A stretch of 32,320 bases of DNA, taken from Candidatus Poribacteria bacterium (GTDB lineage Bacteria; Poribacteria; WGA-4E; WGA-3G). The notes beneath the pieces were generated by a model. That model saw only the letters and a list, made by a program, of their open reading frames with translations, had not been told where the DNA came from and ran no database searches. Below, piece by piece: positions 20,217 through 26,467 of this stretch (position 1 is the stretch's first letter; each line of letters starts with the position of its first letter). The position numbers and the translations under genes are program-made. Location of the stretch: assembly GCA_022821965.1 (NCBI GenBank), contig JAJECN010000012.1, positions 1-32,320 on the forward strand, given 5' to 3'.

Positions 20217-22628
20217 TCACTCGGAAGTGCCAGCTGACGGGGCCGCTTCGGTATCCTGCTGGGATGGAGCACTTTTTGCGCAACGAAATCCGAGCCAACT
20301 GTTTGTGTTTGTAGGTGTATCATCGCCGCGACTTGCCGCATGCGCAGGTCCAGGCGTATTCCAAGAACCGCCGCGTGACACGCGCACCGTTTGAACGCTC
20401 GTGAAGTTCTCTATCAATGCCTCAATGTCCGGAACACCAGCGATTGGATTTTTCTTCGGAGAGTTTTTATAATAAGTCTTATCAAACTGGTCCAAGCAGT
20501 GTTCCCATACATTTCCACCCATGTCATGTAAACCGTATCCATTTGGTAAATAACTGCCGACGGGCGAGGTCTGGCGTCCGTAATAATACCCGTAGTTTGC
20601 TTTACCTGGGTCCCGAGAATCTCCCCATACATAGCGTTTACCTGCTACGCCACCGCGTGCCGCTTTCTCCCATTCTGCTTCCGTCGGAAGCCTCTTGCCT
20701 TTCCACTTAGCATAAGCCATCGCTGCGGACCAACTCACATAGACGACGGGGTGATTGGCTTTTCCATCAGGATAGTCGTTCCCATCCCAGAGTTTGAGGT
20801 AGTTCCCGTTATGGTATTTACTGGGAATATTTTCTTTGCGCCATTCTGGATTGGCATCAACGAACGCCTTGAATTGGGCATTTGTTACCTCATAAGGATC
20901 AATATAGAACGCGTCAAGATAGACGGTATGTATAGGTGTCGCGTACATGCACTCTTTGCTACCCATCTGAAATTCGCCTGCAGGAATCCGAACCATTTCG
21001 GTCGCTGCTTTTTCCAATTCCTGTGCTGGGACAGTGCCGTGCCCTAAAGATTGCATCGCTCGCGTAAAGTCTATTTCTGCTGCTTCATGTTGTCCAAGTC
21101 TCTCTTTTGTTTTCCCACGATTCTCATAGGCTTCGGTGAAATCAGATTTGTGTGCTATGGCTGTATTAAAATCTGCTATTGCGTTGTTATACTCCCCAAG
21201 CACCTTCTTTGTAACACCGCGGGTGTGATAAGCGAAAGCGTTATCTGGTTTTAGTTGAAGTGCTTTATCACTGTCCGCGATCGCTGCGTAATAGTGTTTC
21301 TGCGCTTCGGCGGCTTTTCGTTGTTCCATTTTTAGTTGTCCGAGAAGATACTTCGTCCATCCACGCCCATTGTAATTTGAGCTATTGTTCGGGTCTAACG
21401 TAATGGCTTTAATGTAGTCTTTTATCGCCGCTTGATACTGTTTTTCGGCTTTGCTAAATTCTCCTCGCTTCATGTTCAATTGTCCAAAAAGGTGCTTCAC
21501 CCGTCCGCGCCCCTTGTAATTCGTGTTATCGTCTGAATCTAACTTAATGGCTTTGGTGTAATCCTCTATCGCTGCTTGATACTGTTTTCGGGCTTCTGTT
21601 GTGTTCCCTTGCTCGGTTTCATATTCACCGTGGATGGATCGCGCATGCCCGCGCCCGTAGTAGTTTTCATCATCTTCAGAATCTAATTTGATGGCTTTGG
21701 TGTGGCTTTTTATCGCTGCTTGATGCTGTCTCCGGGCTTTGGTGATGTTTCTCTCGTATTTGCCTATAGCTTCAGCGTAGTGGGACATCATGTACCCACG
21801 CGCCCTATAGGTATAAGCAAACTCCGGGTCCAACTCAACAGATTTATTGAGTTCAAATATTGCTGCTCTGTCGTCATTGTTTTGATGTTTATTTTCTCCT
21901 CGCGCGTAGTAGGTATAGGCACGTATACGTTTTTGCTTATACCATTTCACCAACGGTTCAATTTGAGAAGATTGAGAAAGCAGTGCTTTAAGCGCGTCTG
22001 AAGGGACAGTGTAACTGTAGGAATCATCGCTGCGGGAACTGATGCCGATGACTTCGCCTCTATCGTTTAGAATGGGACCGCCGCTGTTCCCTTTAGTAGT
22101 GTCTGCTGTTGTTTGTATCCATTTATCTTTATATCGACTGTTCCATACAACCCCCTCCGTAAGTTTGTATTCTCCACCGCCCGGATAGCCTATGGCGTAA
22201 ACAGTCTCACCTTTTGTAATGGTACCACTATTGCCGAGAGGGAGCGGCACACCTTCACCCGCGATTTTTAAGATGACGAGATCGTTTTCTATATCAAATG
22301 CGGTAACCCCTTCAACAGCCCAAATTGTCTCATTGTCGCTGAGTTTTACAAAGATAACACCGGGATACGCAACAACGTGCATGTTCGTCACAATCTTATC
22401 AGGCTCCACAAAAAAACCGCTCCCTCCCCCGATGAGCCATCCCCTGTTTGTAGGCAAGCTACCGCTTGTAATACGGACTACGGACGCTTTTCCTTTCTCG
22501 GCTGCGGTGTCTGCTGTCAGCGTCGGAAGTTTTTCCGAAAGGTGCTGCGGTGTCCGCGCGCCTAAAAGGCAAATCACTAAAGCGAAGAGACTGAGTAAAC
22601 ATTTTTTGTTATGTTTCATGGGTAACAT
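20217..22628 (-). CDS. Trypsin-like protease / TPR / FGE-sulfatase-domain fusion
   Basis: 803 residues from the ATG at 22628, which follows GAGG by eight bases; a TTG 22 codons earlier is not preferred. Signal peptide at about 1-25. Residues 45-225 form an HtrA-like trypsin fold with all three catalytic residues: H84 (NMHVV), D116 (ENDLVILKI) and S182 (TTKGNSGGPI). Residues 235-530 are TPRs; the central ones have a long period of about 62 residues, each with an 'AAIxDYxKAIxLD' helix and GRG. Residues 543-785 are a formylglycine-generating-enzyme/SUMF1-like domain (MVRIPAGEFQMGSKE, YEVTNAQFKAFV, RLPTEAEWEKAARGG, YGLHDMGGNVWEH, SRGGSW, GFRCA). The two active-site Cys after RGGS in true FGE are absent, so it is probably not a formylglycine enzyme. 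Likely periplasmic. Protease and binding modules on one chain suggest quality control or signalling. Confidence 0.88.
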   Translation of the reverse strand: MLPMKHNKKCLLSLFALVICLLGARTPQHLSEKLPTLTADTAAEKGKASVVRITSGSLPTNRGWLIGGGSGFFVEPDKIVTNMHVVAYPGVIFVKLSDNETIWAVEGVTAFDIENDLVILKIAGEGVPLPLGNSGTITKGETVYAIGYPGGGEYKLTEGVVWNSRYKDKWIQTTADTTKGNSGGPILNDRGEVIGISSRSDDSYSYTVPSDALKALLSQSSQIEPLVKWYKQKRIRAYTYYARGENKHQNNDDRAAIFELNKSVELDPEFAYTYRARGYMMSHYAEAIGKYERNITKARRQHQAAIKSHTKAIKLDSEDDENYYGRGHARSIHGEYETEQGNTTEARKQYQAAIEDYTKAIKLDSDDNTNYKGRGRVKHLFGQLNMKRGEFSKAEKQYQAAIKDYIKAITLDPNNSSNYNGRGWTKYLLGQLKMEQRKAAEAQKHYYAAIADSDKALQLKPDNAFAYHTRGVTKKVLGEYNNAIADFNTAIAHKSDFTEAYENRGKTKERLGQHEAAEIDFTRAMQSLGHGTVPAQELEKAATEMVRIPAGEFQMGSKECMYATPIHTVYLDAFYIDPYEVTNAQFKAFVDANPEWRKENIPSKYHNGNYLKLWDGNDYPDGKANHPVVYVSWSAAMAYAKWKGKRLPTEAEWEKAARGGVAGKRYVWGDSRDPGKANYGYYYGRQTSPVGSYLPNGYGLHDMGGNVWEHCLDQFDKTYYKNSPKKNPIAGVPDIEALIENFTSVQTVRVSRGGSWNTPGPAHAASRGDDTPTNTNSWLGFRCAKSAPSQQDTEAAPSAGTSE

Positions 22629-22853: not shown

Positions 22854-22882
22854 TTGACATCCTCCATGGAATATGGTATCAT
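22854..22882 (+). promoter_or_regulatory. Sigma70-type promoter of the ileS leader
   Basis: TTGACA (22854-22859, consensus), a 17-bp spacer, and TATCAT (22877-22882). A start near 22889 gives a leader of about 430 nt ahead of ileS, terminated early at 23193 when the attenuator is closed. Confidence 0.85.
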
Positions 22883-22969
22883 AATTAATAAGTACACGTT
22901 CTAAAACAAGTTTTCACCAAGCCTGACAAAGCTTACGGAGCATTTACGAAGACATCATTCAAACGAGAC

Positions 22970-23119
22970 ATGGACAGAGAAGTGCTTACGACACCGACAT
23001 CGCAAGATAAGGAATTTGTGCGCTACAACACCCCAAATCAAGACAACCTTCAGGCTGTCACGGGTTCGCGCGCCATATCCATTATTATTATTGCTATTCG
23101 TCGTGCTGTGGTGGGCTAA
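22970..23119 (+). CDS. ileS leader peptide (Ile-rich)
   Basis: A 49-codon frame, ATG at 22970 to TAA at 23117-23119. Six of eight consecutive codons (36-43: ATA TCC ATT ATT ATT ATT GCT ATT) encode isoleucine. It is followed by two Arg and a short tail ending at the stop. It lies between a consensus-like promoter and a terminator, directly upstream of ileS, as expected for an attenuation leader peptide (compare the ilv leaders of enterobacteria and pheM before pheST). The Shine-Dalgarno of the ATG is weak. GTG at 23018, preceded by AAGGA, is an alternative start giving 33 residues; both contain the Ile run. The frame is open upstream to 22892 without a standard start codon. Function is control, not the peptide itself (inference). 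Confidence 0.7.
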   Translation: MDREVLTTPTSQDKEFVRYNTPNQDNLQAVTGSRAISIIIIAIRRAVVG

Positions 23120-23193
23120 TCACGAACAGACAAGAAATTTCTATTACAACGCCCATCACTGAGCAGACGGTTTCAGTGAGGGTGTTTTTTTTT
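23068..23193 (+). promoter_or_regulatory. Isoleucine-responsive attenuator of ileS
   Basis: Three competing pairings can be read. Region 1 (23068-23077) can pair with region 2 (23107-23116), with one G-G mismatch and two G-U pairs. Region 2 (GTGGTGGGC, 23108-23116) can pair with region 3 (GCCCATCAC, 23151-23159), nine pairs including one G-U: the antiterminator. Region 3 also forms the 5' arm of the terminator (23149-23185). The Ile codons (23075-23098) lie between regions 1 and 2. A ribosome stalled there would leave region 2 free; one at the stop codon (23117) would cover it and allow the terminator. No fold was computed. Confidence 0.7.
23149..23193 (+). terminator. Attenuator terminator before ileS
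   Basis: ACGCCC(A)TCACTGA (23149-23162) pairs with TCAGTGAGGGTGT (23173-23185) as a 13-bp stem with one A bulge, and is followed by nine T (23185-23193). It is strong and lies 128 bp before the ileS start. Confidence 0.93.
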
Positions 23194-23198
23194 AAGAG

Positions 23199-23303
23199 TC
23201 TTCAGTTATCATCTCTCGGTTTTCGGTGTTTTTTCTCAAACCCCGTGCGGACGCATCAGAAACCTCTTTCACCGATAACTGACAACCGATAACCGAAAAC
23301 CAT
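23199..23303. repeat. Heptamer-repeat element, copy E7
   Basis: Left arm TCTTCAGTTATCATCTCTC, right arm AACCTCTTTCACCGATAACTGACAACCG (23261-23303). On the minus strand it has AAAGAGG (23269-23263), TTTCTG and ATG (23256-23254) at the same spacing as E1 and E2. It sits between the attenuator terminator and ileS. Confidence 0.82.
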
Positions 23304-23320
23304 TAAACGAGGAGTTTCCC

Positions 23321-26300
23321 ATGTTTGAAGAGGTATCACCGCAATTTACGTTTGCTGAAAAAGAAAAACAGGTCTTGGAGTTCTGGCGTGAAAACGACAT
23401 CTTTCAGAAGAGTATGGAGATGTATAAAGACGCACCTTCGTTTGTTTTTCTGGAAGGACCACCGTTTGCGAATGCACCTCCCGGTGTGCATCACGTCCTT
23501 GCACGCGTCATGAAAGATGCCGTCTGCCGCTACAAGACCATGACAGGACATTATGTCCTCCGTAAAGCAGGTTGGGACACCCACGGACTCCCTGTCGAAT
23601 ATCAGGTTGAGAAGCAACTCAATATTACAAATAAGGCGGAATTAGAGGCTTACGGCGTTCAGAACTTTATCGAAAAATGTAAGGAGAATGTGTTCCAATA
23701 CGAGCAGGATTGGCGACGAATGACAGAGCGCATCGGATTCTGGGTCAACTTAGATGATGCTTATATCACGTTGTCAAACGATTACATTGAAAGCGTCTGG
23801 TGGGTGCTCCGGCAAGCGTGGGAGAAGGAGCTGCTCTATCAAGGACATAAGGTACAACCGTATTGCTATCGGTGCGGTACAACCTTAGCAAGCCACGAAG
23901 TCGCGCTCGGTTACCAAGAGGTCGCCGATCCGTCTATCTTTGTCCGTTTCCGGCTGAAGAATAGGGAGAATACTTACCTGCTCGTCTGGACGACGACCCC
24001 GTGGACTTTACCTTCTAACGTCGCTGTTGCTGTCGGTGAAAATTACGATTACGTCGCTGTTGAAGAAGGTAACGGGCAGCACCTTATCCTCGCGAAGGAA
24101 TGTATACCGAGCCTATTCGGTGATGAATCTCCTCAGATCGTTGAAACCTATAAGGGAAGCGACCTCCAAGCGTGGGAATACGAACCTCTGTTTGATAGCG
24201 GGCAGCATCCAGAAAAATCACACTACATCGTCACCGGCGATTTTGTAACGACCACAGAGGGAAGTGGTTTGGTTCACATCGCTCCCGCCTTTGGACAAGA
24301 TGACTACGAGATTGGGCAGAAATACAACCTGCCACTCGTGCAGTTGGTGGGTCCTGATGGCAAATTTGTTTCGGCGGTGAAAGAGCCGTGGGCAGGCGAA
24401 TACGTCAAGGATGCCGATCCGCAAATCATCGAAAACTTGGATGGGCGTGGACTGTTGTTCAAGGCTTCTGAATATACGCACCAATATCCGTTCTGTTGGC
24501 GGTGTGATACCCCGTTGCTCTATTACGCACGCGAATCGTGGTTTATCCGGACGACGGCTATCCGAGAACAGATGCACCAAAATAACCAGCAGATCAATTG
24601 GTATCCAGAGCATATTAAGAATGGACGCTTCGGCAATTGGTTGGAAAATAATATTGACTGGGGATTGAGTCGTGAACGTTATTGGGGAACGCCCTTGCCG
24701 GTTTGGGTGTGTGACGACTGCGGGCATCAGCATTGTGTCGGTAGTATTGCTGAATTGAAAGAACTCGGTACCGATGTACCGGATGATATTGAACTGCACC
24801 GTCCTTATGTGGACGACGTTGCTCTCGTGTGTGGAGAATGCAGCGGCACGATGCATCGCGTGGAAGACGTAATTGATTGCTGGTTTGACTCTGGTTGTGC
24901 GCACACAGCGCAGTGGCATTATCCCTTTGAAAACAAGGAGATGTTAGACCAGGCGTATCCGGCAGATTTCATCTCCGAAGCTATTGATCAGACACGCGGG
25001 TGGTTCTATAGCCTCTTAGCAACCGGTACGCTTCTCTATGATAAACCTGCTTACAAAAACTGCCTCTGCCTTGAACTCATTATGGGACCCGATGGACAAA
25101 AAATGAGTAAGAGTCGGGGAAACACGGTGGACCCATGGACAATTCTCGACAAGCAAGGTGCAGATGCGATGCGCTGGTATATGTTCACCGCAACCACACC
25201 GTGGACATCGCGCGCTTTCAAACCGGAGGGCATTGACGAAGCCTTAAAGAAGTTCATGGGAACCCTCCAGAACGTTTATAGTTTCTTTGTCATGTATGCG
25301 AACTTAGAGCAGGTCGATGTCTTGCGAGATGCACCGCCTGTTTCCGAGCGCGCTGTCGTGGACAAATGGATCTTGTCGCGTCTCCAGACGCTCATTGATG
25401 AGGTGCGCGACAATATGGAGAATTACCATCTCACGAATGCACCGCGCGCGATTGAGGCGTTTGTGGATGACCTCAGCAACTGGTATGTCCGCCGTTCCCG
25501 GGATCGGTTCTGGGGGGCGGAAGCAGGACCCGACAAGCATGCTGCCTACGCCACGCTTTATGAAGTGCTTGTAACCGTTGCGAAACTCTCTGCACCCTTC
25601 GTTCCATTTTTGGCAGACGAACTCTATCTCAATTTGGTGTGTTCGCTGGATGCTGAGGCACCCCTGAGTGTTCATCTTGCGGAATATCCAGTTGCAGATG
25701 CCGCGCTCAGAGATGTTCAGTTAGAAACCGATATGGATTTCACCCGCGAAGTTATTAGCATGGGACACGCTGCACGCAACCGCTCCGGCATTAAAACCCG
25801 CCAACCGCTCGCGGAGATTACCCTTGGTGGACTCTCTGAGGCAGAGAAAGCGACTGTTGACCGTTTAGCCGACCTCGTCTACGATGAACTCAACGTCAAA
25901 GGGATTGCCTTTACAGAAGCGTTGGACGCTTTCGCACAGGTGACGCTCAAACCCAACTTCAAGGTATTGGGACCCAAGTACGGTAAGGGCGTGCAAGCCA
26001 TCGCTAAAACCCTCGCTGCCGGAGATGCAGTGGCATTGAAGGCGGCATTGGAAGCCGCTGGCAGTCTACAAATTGAAGCATCGGGAGAGACGTATACCCT
26101 TGAGCAATCTGACGTTGAGGTCCAGACGCGGAATCGGGAAGGGTTCTTTGTCGAGATGGATACAAAGAAATTCGTCGCTTTATCCACAGAATTGACGCAC
26201 GAGTTAACACTTGAAGGCTTGGCGCGCGAATTCGTCAATAAGATTCAGAATATGCGAAAGGAGGCTGATTTTAATGTCTCTGATCGGATTAAACTCAGCC

Positions 26301-26467
26301 TTGATACGACATCCGCACTTCTGGATGAGGCGTTTCAGGCGCATCGGGACTATATCCTCCGCGAGACACTCACGATGACAGTTGTAGATATTCCGAGTGA
26401 AAATGCCTTCACCCTTGCACAGAAACTGAACGGTGAACCTGCCACCTTGAGTGTTGAACAAGTCTGA
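23321..26467 (+). CDS. ileS: Isoleucyl-tRNA synthetase, type 2
   Basis: 1048 residues, as in full-length IleRS. It charges tRNA-Ile and edits valine. The HIGH element is GPPFANAPPGVHHVL (46-60): the PGxHH form of type 2 (eukaryote-like, typically mupirocin-tolerant) enzymes, followed by RKAGWDTHGLPVE. The CP1 editing domain has VWTTTPWTLPSNVAVAVG (about 223-240) and the KMSKS loop is KMSKS at 594-598. Zn-binding Cys motifs lie at CDDCGHQH and CGEC, and DCWFDSG is present. The C-terminal half (about 660 on) carries the anticodon-binding domain, with PISVH-like sequence. GAGGAG before ATG gives a strong ribosome binding site. An Ile leader peptide and attenuator lie upstream, so expression probably rises when charged tRNA-Ile is scarce. 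Confidence 0.97.
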   Translation: MFEEVSPQFTFAEKEKQVLEFWRENDIFQKSMEMYKDAPSFVFLEGPPFANAPPGVHHVLARVMKDAVCRYKTMTGHYVLRKAGWDTHGLPVEYQVEKQLNITNKAELEAYGVQNFIEKCKENVFQYEQDWRRMTERIGFWVNLDDAYITLSNDYIESVWWVLRQAWEKELLYQGHKVQPYCYRCGTTLASHEVALGYQEVADPSIFVRFRLKNRENTYLLVWTTTPWTLPSNVAVAVGENYDYVAVEEGNGQHLILAKECIPSLFGDESPQIVETYKGSDLQAWEYEPLFDSGQHPEKSHYIVTGDFVTTTEGSGLVHIAPAFGQDDYEIGQKYNLPLVQLVGPDGKFVSAVKEPWAGEYVKDADPQIIENLDGRGLLFKASEYTHQYPFCWRCDTPLLYYARESWFIRTTAIREQMHQNNQQINWYPEHIKNGRFGNWLENNIDWGLSRERYWGTPLPVWVCDDCGHQHCVGSIAELKELGTDVPDDIELHRPYVDDVALVCGECSGTMHRVEDVIDCWFDSGCAHTAQWHYPFENKEMLDQAYPADFISEAIDQTRGWFYSLLATGTLLYDKPAYKNCLCLELIMGPDGQKMSKSRGNTVDPWTILDKQGADAMRWYMFTATTPWTSRAFKPEGIDEALKKFMGTLQNVYSFFVMYANLEQVDVLRDAPPVSERAVVDKWILSRLQTLIDEVRDNMENYHLTNAPRAIEAFVDDLSNWYVRRSRDRFWGAEAGPDKHAAYATLYEVLVTVAKLSAPFVPFLADELYLNLVCSLDAEAPLSVHLAEYPVADAALRDVQLETDMDFTREVISMGHAARNRSGIKTRQPLAEITLGGLSEAEKATVDRLADLVYDELNVKGIAFTEALDAFAQVTLKPNFKVLGPKYGKGVQAIAKTLAAGDAVALKAALEAAGSLQIEASGETYTLEQSDVEVQTRNREGFFVEMDTKKFVALSTELTHELTLEGLAREFVNKIQNMRKEADFNVSDRIKLSLDTTSALLDEAFQAHRDYILRETLTMTVVDIPSENAFTLAQKLNGEPATLSVEQV

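Follow-up and report, generated by a model that had tools for sequence, protein, structure and literature searches.

A predicted ribosome-mediated transcription attenuator with an isoleucine-codon leader upstream of ileS in Candidatus Poribacteria

Organization of the ileS upstream region

The window, the whole stretch of DNA that was analysed, comprises 32,320 nucleotides from a Candidatus Poribacteria bacterium, and the named ileS loci closest to the one that it contains all belong to Candidatus Poribacteria. The following features were assigned at and around ileS.

20217..22616, minus strand: HtrA-like gene upstream of the leader, on the opposite strand to ileS
22854..22882, plus strand: sigma-70-type promoter, TTGACA-17-TATCAT, with an extended TG before the -10 element
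22970..23119, plus strand: leader ORF of 49 codons, ATG at 22970 and TAA at 23117-23119, encoding MDREVLTTPTSQDKEFVRYNTPNQDNLQAVTGSRAISIIIIAIRRAVVG
23068..23077, plus strand: proposed region 1, putative partner of region 2 with an internal G-G mismatch
23075..23098, plus strand: control codons ATA TCC ATT ATT ATT ATT GCT ATT, six Ile in eight codons
23107..23116, plus strand: region 2, overlapping the last leader codons (AVVG) and pairing with region 3
23148..23193, plus strand: intrinsic terminator, stem 23148-23163/23172-23186, with nine T at 23185-23193
23151..23159, plus strand: region 3, partner of region 2 (antiterminator) or part of the 5' arm of the terminator
23307..23314, plus strand: Shine-Dalgarno-like acgaggag of ileS, seen in the sequence
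23321..26467, plus strand: ileS, isoleucyl-tRNA synthetase, 1048 aa (TIGR00392, 962.9 bits)

The first-pass annotation had proposed an Ile-dependent attenuator of the classical type in front of ileS, and its parts lie where it placed them. The promoter that it described as consensus-like matches 11 of the 12 consensus bases with a spacing of 17 nt, and promoters of like type were found at 31 of 42 named poribacterial ileS loci. The 49-codon frame and its six Ile codons in eight positions are likewise both present, codons 36-43 reading Ile Ser Ile Ile Ile Ile Ala Ile. Among 366 short ATG frames of the window, the leader ORF alone has at least five Ile in eight codons, and none of 5000 dinucleotide shuffles of the leader reached its Ile cluster. 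On the other hand, the Shine-Dalgarno sequence of the leader ATG is weak, which we count against the attenuator reading. The product of the minus-strand gene at 20217-22616 is predicted to carry an HtrA-like protease domain, TPR-like repeats and an EgtB/GldK-like (FGE-type) domain.

Mutually exclusive helices in the leader RNA

Regions 2 and 3 can form a helix (23108-23116 with 23151-23159) in which all nine positions are paired, one of them as G-U, just as had been claimed; this pairing was equalled by 1 of 2000 shuffles. Region 3 was also rightly placed in the 5' arm of the terminator, 23151-23159 lying inside 23148-23163, and the parts, their conservation and the mutual exclusivity of the two helices are evident from the sequence itself. 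The terminator and its nine T were confirmed but not the 13 bp ascribed to it, the stem having 15 pairs with one bulged A (about −20 kcal/mol). The antiterminator is worth about −14 to −17 kcal/mol versus about −20 kcal/mol for the terminator, so the terminator wins at equilibrium and antitermination would have to be kinetic, during transcription, as is usual for known attenuators. The whole leader folded without a ribosome was unremarkable (z = −1.09).

The proposed pairing of region 1 with region 2 (23068-23077 with 23107-23116) was borne out only in part: 9 of 10 bases pair, but a G-G mismatch at the third position is fixed in all 38 aligned sequences, and 84.5% of alignment cells are paired with no covariation, a further point against the attenuator reading. 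In the core genus, this helix may serve as a hairpin for pausing or for protection.

Proposed mechanism of ileS attenuation

We propose that the leader senses the charging of tRNA-Ile and controls ileS by ribosome-mediated transcription attenuation, a reading to which we give a probability of about 0.93. The features of a classical attenuator found here are a promoter with a short leader ORF, a run of cognate codons, a terminator, a 2:3 helix sharing region 3 with it, and a suitable geometry; ribosome stalling, antitermination and the physiological signal are steps that we infer. Transcription would start near 22889, with the leader ribosome trailing RNA polymerase. When Ile-tRNA is charged, the ribosome would advance to the stop codon at 23117 and cover region 2, whereupon regions 3 and 4 would form the terminator and RNA polymerase would halt at about 23193. 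When charged Ile-tRNA is scarce, the ribosome would stall at the Ile codons (23075-23098) and leave region 2 free, which would pair with region 3 while region 4 is still to be transcribed, so that transcription would proceed into ileS. Such an attenuator would imply transcription-translation coupling in Poribacteria.

The geometry was evaluated with a footprint model, which assumes that the ribosome extends approximately 12 nt downstream, counted from the first base of the A-site codon to its leading edge. For each of the six Ile codons placed in the A site, with RNA polymerase at 23163-23175, the modelled probability of 2:3 pairing was about 1.0. Pairing was hindered once the second Arg codon occupied the A site, and it was impossible when the A site held any of the last four codons (codon 46 onwards) or the stop codon. 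The spacing therefore fits the classical model in the way first suggested, since in this footprint model a ribosome on the Ile codons frees region 2 and one at the stop codon blocks 2:3 pairing.

Conservation among poribacterial relatives

Four of the 42 named poribacterial ileS loci had too little upstream sequence, leaving 38 testable, of which 37 carry the leader before ileS, ending in IIIAIRRAVVG and the stop codon or a close variant; at least four Ile codons within the last 16 leader codons were likewise found in 37 of the 38. The Ile tract columns of alignment A1 are invariant or nearly so. Helix 2:3 is paired in 99.7% of alignment cells, although with so little variation at this depth the covariation is modest. 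Region 3 is nearly invariant and more conserved than region 4, which occurs in several forms, each closing the terminator, a pattern to be expected of a segment that has to pair with two different partners. An alignment of ileS upstream regions, advised in the first-pass annotation, has thus shown that close relatives keep both the Ile codons and the competing antiterminator.

Of 85 genomes of the phylum, 59 contain a match to a covariance model of the element (R1), built from the window and 37 relatives. The lone exception among the testable loci (L079, 76% identity) keeps the promoter, which is followed directly by ileS, with leader and terminator absent. This locus, probably from the same genome as G063 (genus g18), looks like a natural loss of the attenuator. 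Apparent absences within the genus are matters of assembly or distance: in G009 a long repeat-rich insertion separates the terminator from ileS, the leader being present in L090, and the G002 leader sits at a different contig end.

Three other families of the same order (f2, f3 and f4) and G061 of the same phylum again have an Ile-rich frame, region 2 and a terminator before ileS, which has itself diverged to about 45% identity. Region 2 is there of the type GATGGTGGGC, and the terminator begins with GCCCATCATC or nearly so. The leader peptides differ between families (GIISIIIIIPSCDGGLMETK, MLTITVIISSVLISIIILIDGGQKA and DDIIIIRLLQTMVGAEISS, each ending at the stop codon), and all three Ile codons, ATT, ATC and ATA, are used in the other families. 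In a gap-free alignment of 16 representatives picked by eye, helix 2:3 showed compensatory types at position 1 (C-G, U-G, U-A), position 6 (G-U, A-U, G-C), position 9 (G-C, A-U) and position 11 (C-G, G-C); position 10 is G-C or A-U, and unpaired in most of f1. These compensatory pairs between families, together with the conserved design, favour the Ile-dependent attenuator originally proposed.

Two features of some relatives count against it. First, an in-frame leader ATG is missing in G040, G041, G043 and G045, and the start codon is ambiguous in some order-level members. Second, more distant members of the class have a terminator before ileS with few Ile codons, namely two to four, or none clearly, in G050, G054, G057 and G051. 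No such element was found before ileS in G044. Among the outgroups, the ileS loci of Chloroflexi and Kiritimatiellae showed no Ile leader.

T-boxes in the same genome and alternative explanations

T-boxes (RF00230) read tRNA charging, control synthetase and amino acid genes and often precede ileS. The genome of the window has one before ilvB (L103:3244-3523, minus strand, 99.7 bits, above the Rfam cut-off) and a T-box-like leader before pheS (L109:967-1173, full length, 73.9 bits, E = 2.4e-15), which does not reach the Rfam cut-off of 93 and bears the GGGTGGTACCGCGG motif. The letters that follow the conserved GAA in the specifier loop suggest GUC (Val) as the specifier for ilvB and UUC (Phe) for pheS. 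With T-boxes before ilvB and pheS and the predicted attenuator before ileS, one genome would combine two tRNA-sensing strategies, a case relevant to the question of how bacteria come to use one or the other, and why. Further attenuators were sought with R1 and at selected genes; by eye, no Ile-, Val- or Leu-rich leader was seen at valS, leuS or the second ilvB-like gene of this genome.

Given these neighbours, and T-boxes upstream of ileS in two unclassified outgroup bacteria (L094 and L095, ileS about 45% identical), it might be asked whether the ileS leader itself is a T-box or another riboswitch with tRNA-Ile or a metabolite as its direct ligand, the Ile-rich frame being incidental. We regard this as highly improbable. 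No Rfam element was matched at the leader, the T-box in particular neither at the gathering score nor at E up to 5, the T-box motif GGTGGNACCGCG is absent from it, and between families the Ile codons stay while the surrounding RNA changes. The proposed attenuator and the T-box have in common the reading of tRNA charge, whereas the T-box binds tRNA directly without translation and its features are lacking in this leader.

The terminator could also be constitutive, ending an upstream transcript or a small RNA, with a leader frame of no regulatory role; many intergenic regions have terminators, and L079 shows that the promoter can stand without leader or terminator. This explanation is very unlikely, as the divergent upstream gene is separated from the terminator by the promoter, and the longest ORF upstream of ileS is on the opposite strand in most loci (27 versus 8), which makes it improbable that the terminator acts for a gene further upstream. 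Conservation of region 3 above region 4, the near-complete 2:3 pairing, its compensatory changes between families and the uniqueness of the Ile cluster in the window argue against it as well. No more credible is a functional small protein in which the hydrophobic Ile tract has a protein role. Indeed, 38 sequences keep the frame open and show strong conservation at its 3' end, but the codons conserved there are the ones that overlap region 2, and protein-level selection on the N-terminal part was not detected (pN/pS 0.76, not below the out-of-frame value), this part shortening or changing freely (L070, L072), as expected if the control codons alone matter. Ribosome-mediated attenuation thus remains, by a wide margin, our preferred reading of the leader.

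Relation to known attenuators

In E. coli, pheST is a classical case of ribosome-mediated attenuation of a synthetase operon. The poribacterial leader resembles it in having a peptide rich in cognate codons, alternative antiterminator and terminator, and an aminoacyl-tRNA synthetase as target, and differs in its Ile codons, its target ileS, its unrelated sequence, its 49 codons and its phylum. Judged by its design, the ileS attenuator should operate in the manner of the trp and pheST attenuators of E. coli; the mechanism is classical, not new, whereas the target gene and the phylum are probably new for leader-peptide attenuation. Earlier ileS predictions may be present in a 2010 comparative survey of synthetase-gene attenuation by Lopatovskaya et al. 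(doi 10.1134/S0026893310010164), which is cited in PMC4833913. PMC1262725 (Seliverstov et al. 2005) names pheST as a classical attenuator, predicts classical attenuators for Streptomyces trpS and leuS, and assigns T-boxes, not leader peptides, to actinobacterial ileS. The Streptomyces cases are like ours in being synthetase-gene attenuators predicted outside Proteobacteria and unlike it in the amino acids concerned.

The first-pass annotation had listed ilv, his, trp, leu and pheST operons, and not ileS, as well-known attenuator targets. This held insofar as no analysed, published ileS leader-peptide attenuator was found in the open-access papers searched, but an 'ileS leader CDS' had already been named in Caulobacter crescentus, where an overexpression assay included CCNA_03934 only as a negative control (PMC4117421, available text). 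Like our leader, it is a translated small frame upstream of ileS; unlike it, it is described in that text without Ile codons, helices or regulation. The open-access literature yielded no paper on RNA motifs or T-boxes in Poribacteria. With about 40 genomes lending comparative support, the ileS leader would bring leader-peptide attenuation to an uncultured phylum and to a synthetase gene usually associated with T-boxes.

A second copy of the leader and the sequence before ileS

In about 27 genomes of the genus, R1 had a second match, which in the genome of the window lies at G000:C39:60090-60266 (L146:1591-1767); further such loci are L147-L149, L151, L152 and L170-L189. In the 26 second copies inspected, the start of a related protein came next wherever the downstream sequence sufficed, and in the genome of the window this gene encodes DUF5916 and CBM9 domains. 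The leader peptide of the second copy is typically like MFYLSSITLIHKNCLCTFIGLGVVLIGISMCRAVVGE before the stop codon, the Ile run being lost and replaced by a mixed FIGLGVVLIGIS stretch, and region 2 and the terminator are generally retained. The second copy is probably a diverged duplicate of the ileS leader. A broader scheme is tentative and, in our estimate, rather unlikely to hold as a whole: Poribacteria would have two parallel tRNA-charge sensors, with ilvB and pheS under T-boxes and ileS under a leader-peptide attenuator that spans the phylum, and the copy duplicated in the genus would have been re-tuned so that branched-chain amino acids, or translation in general, control a surface protein (DUF5916/CBM9).

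Between the terminator and ileS, the DNA is variable and repeat-rich, from about 20 to more than 600 nt in length (L006/L090 of G009, L033 of G002, and 23200-23310 of the window), and includes repeats resembling TTATCGGTTATCAGT, which also occur upstream of valS. In L049 and L050 (G036 and G038, from two families), a similar stretch around GGATAAATACCGGTTCG lies between the terminator and ileS.
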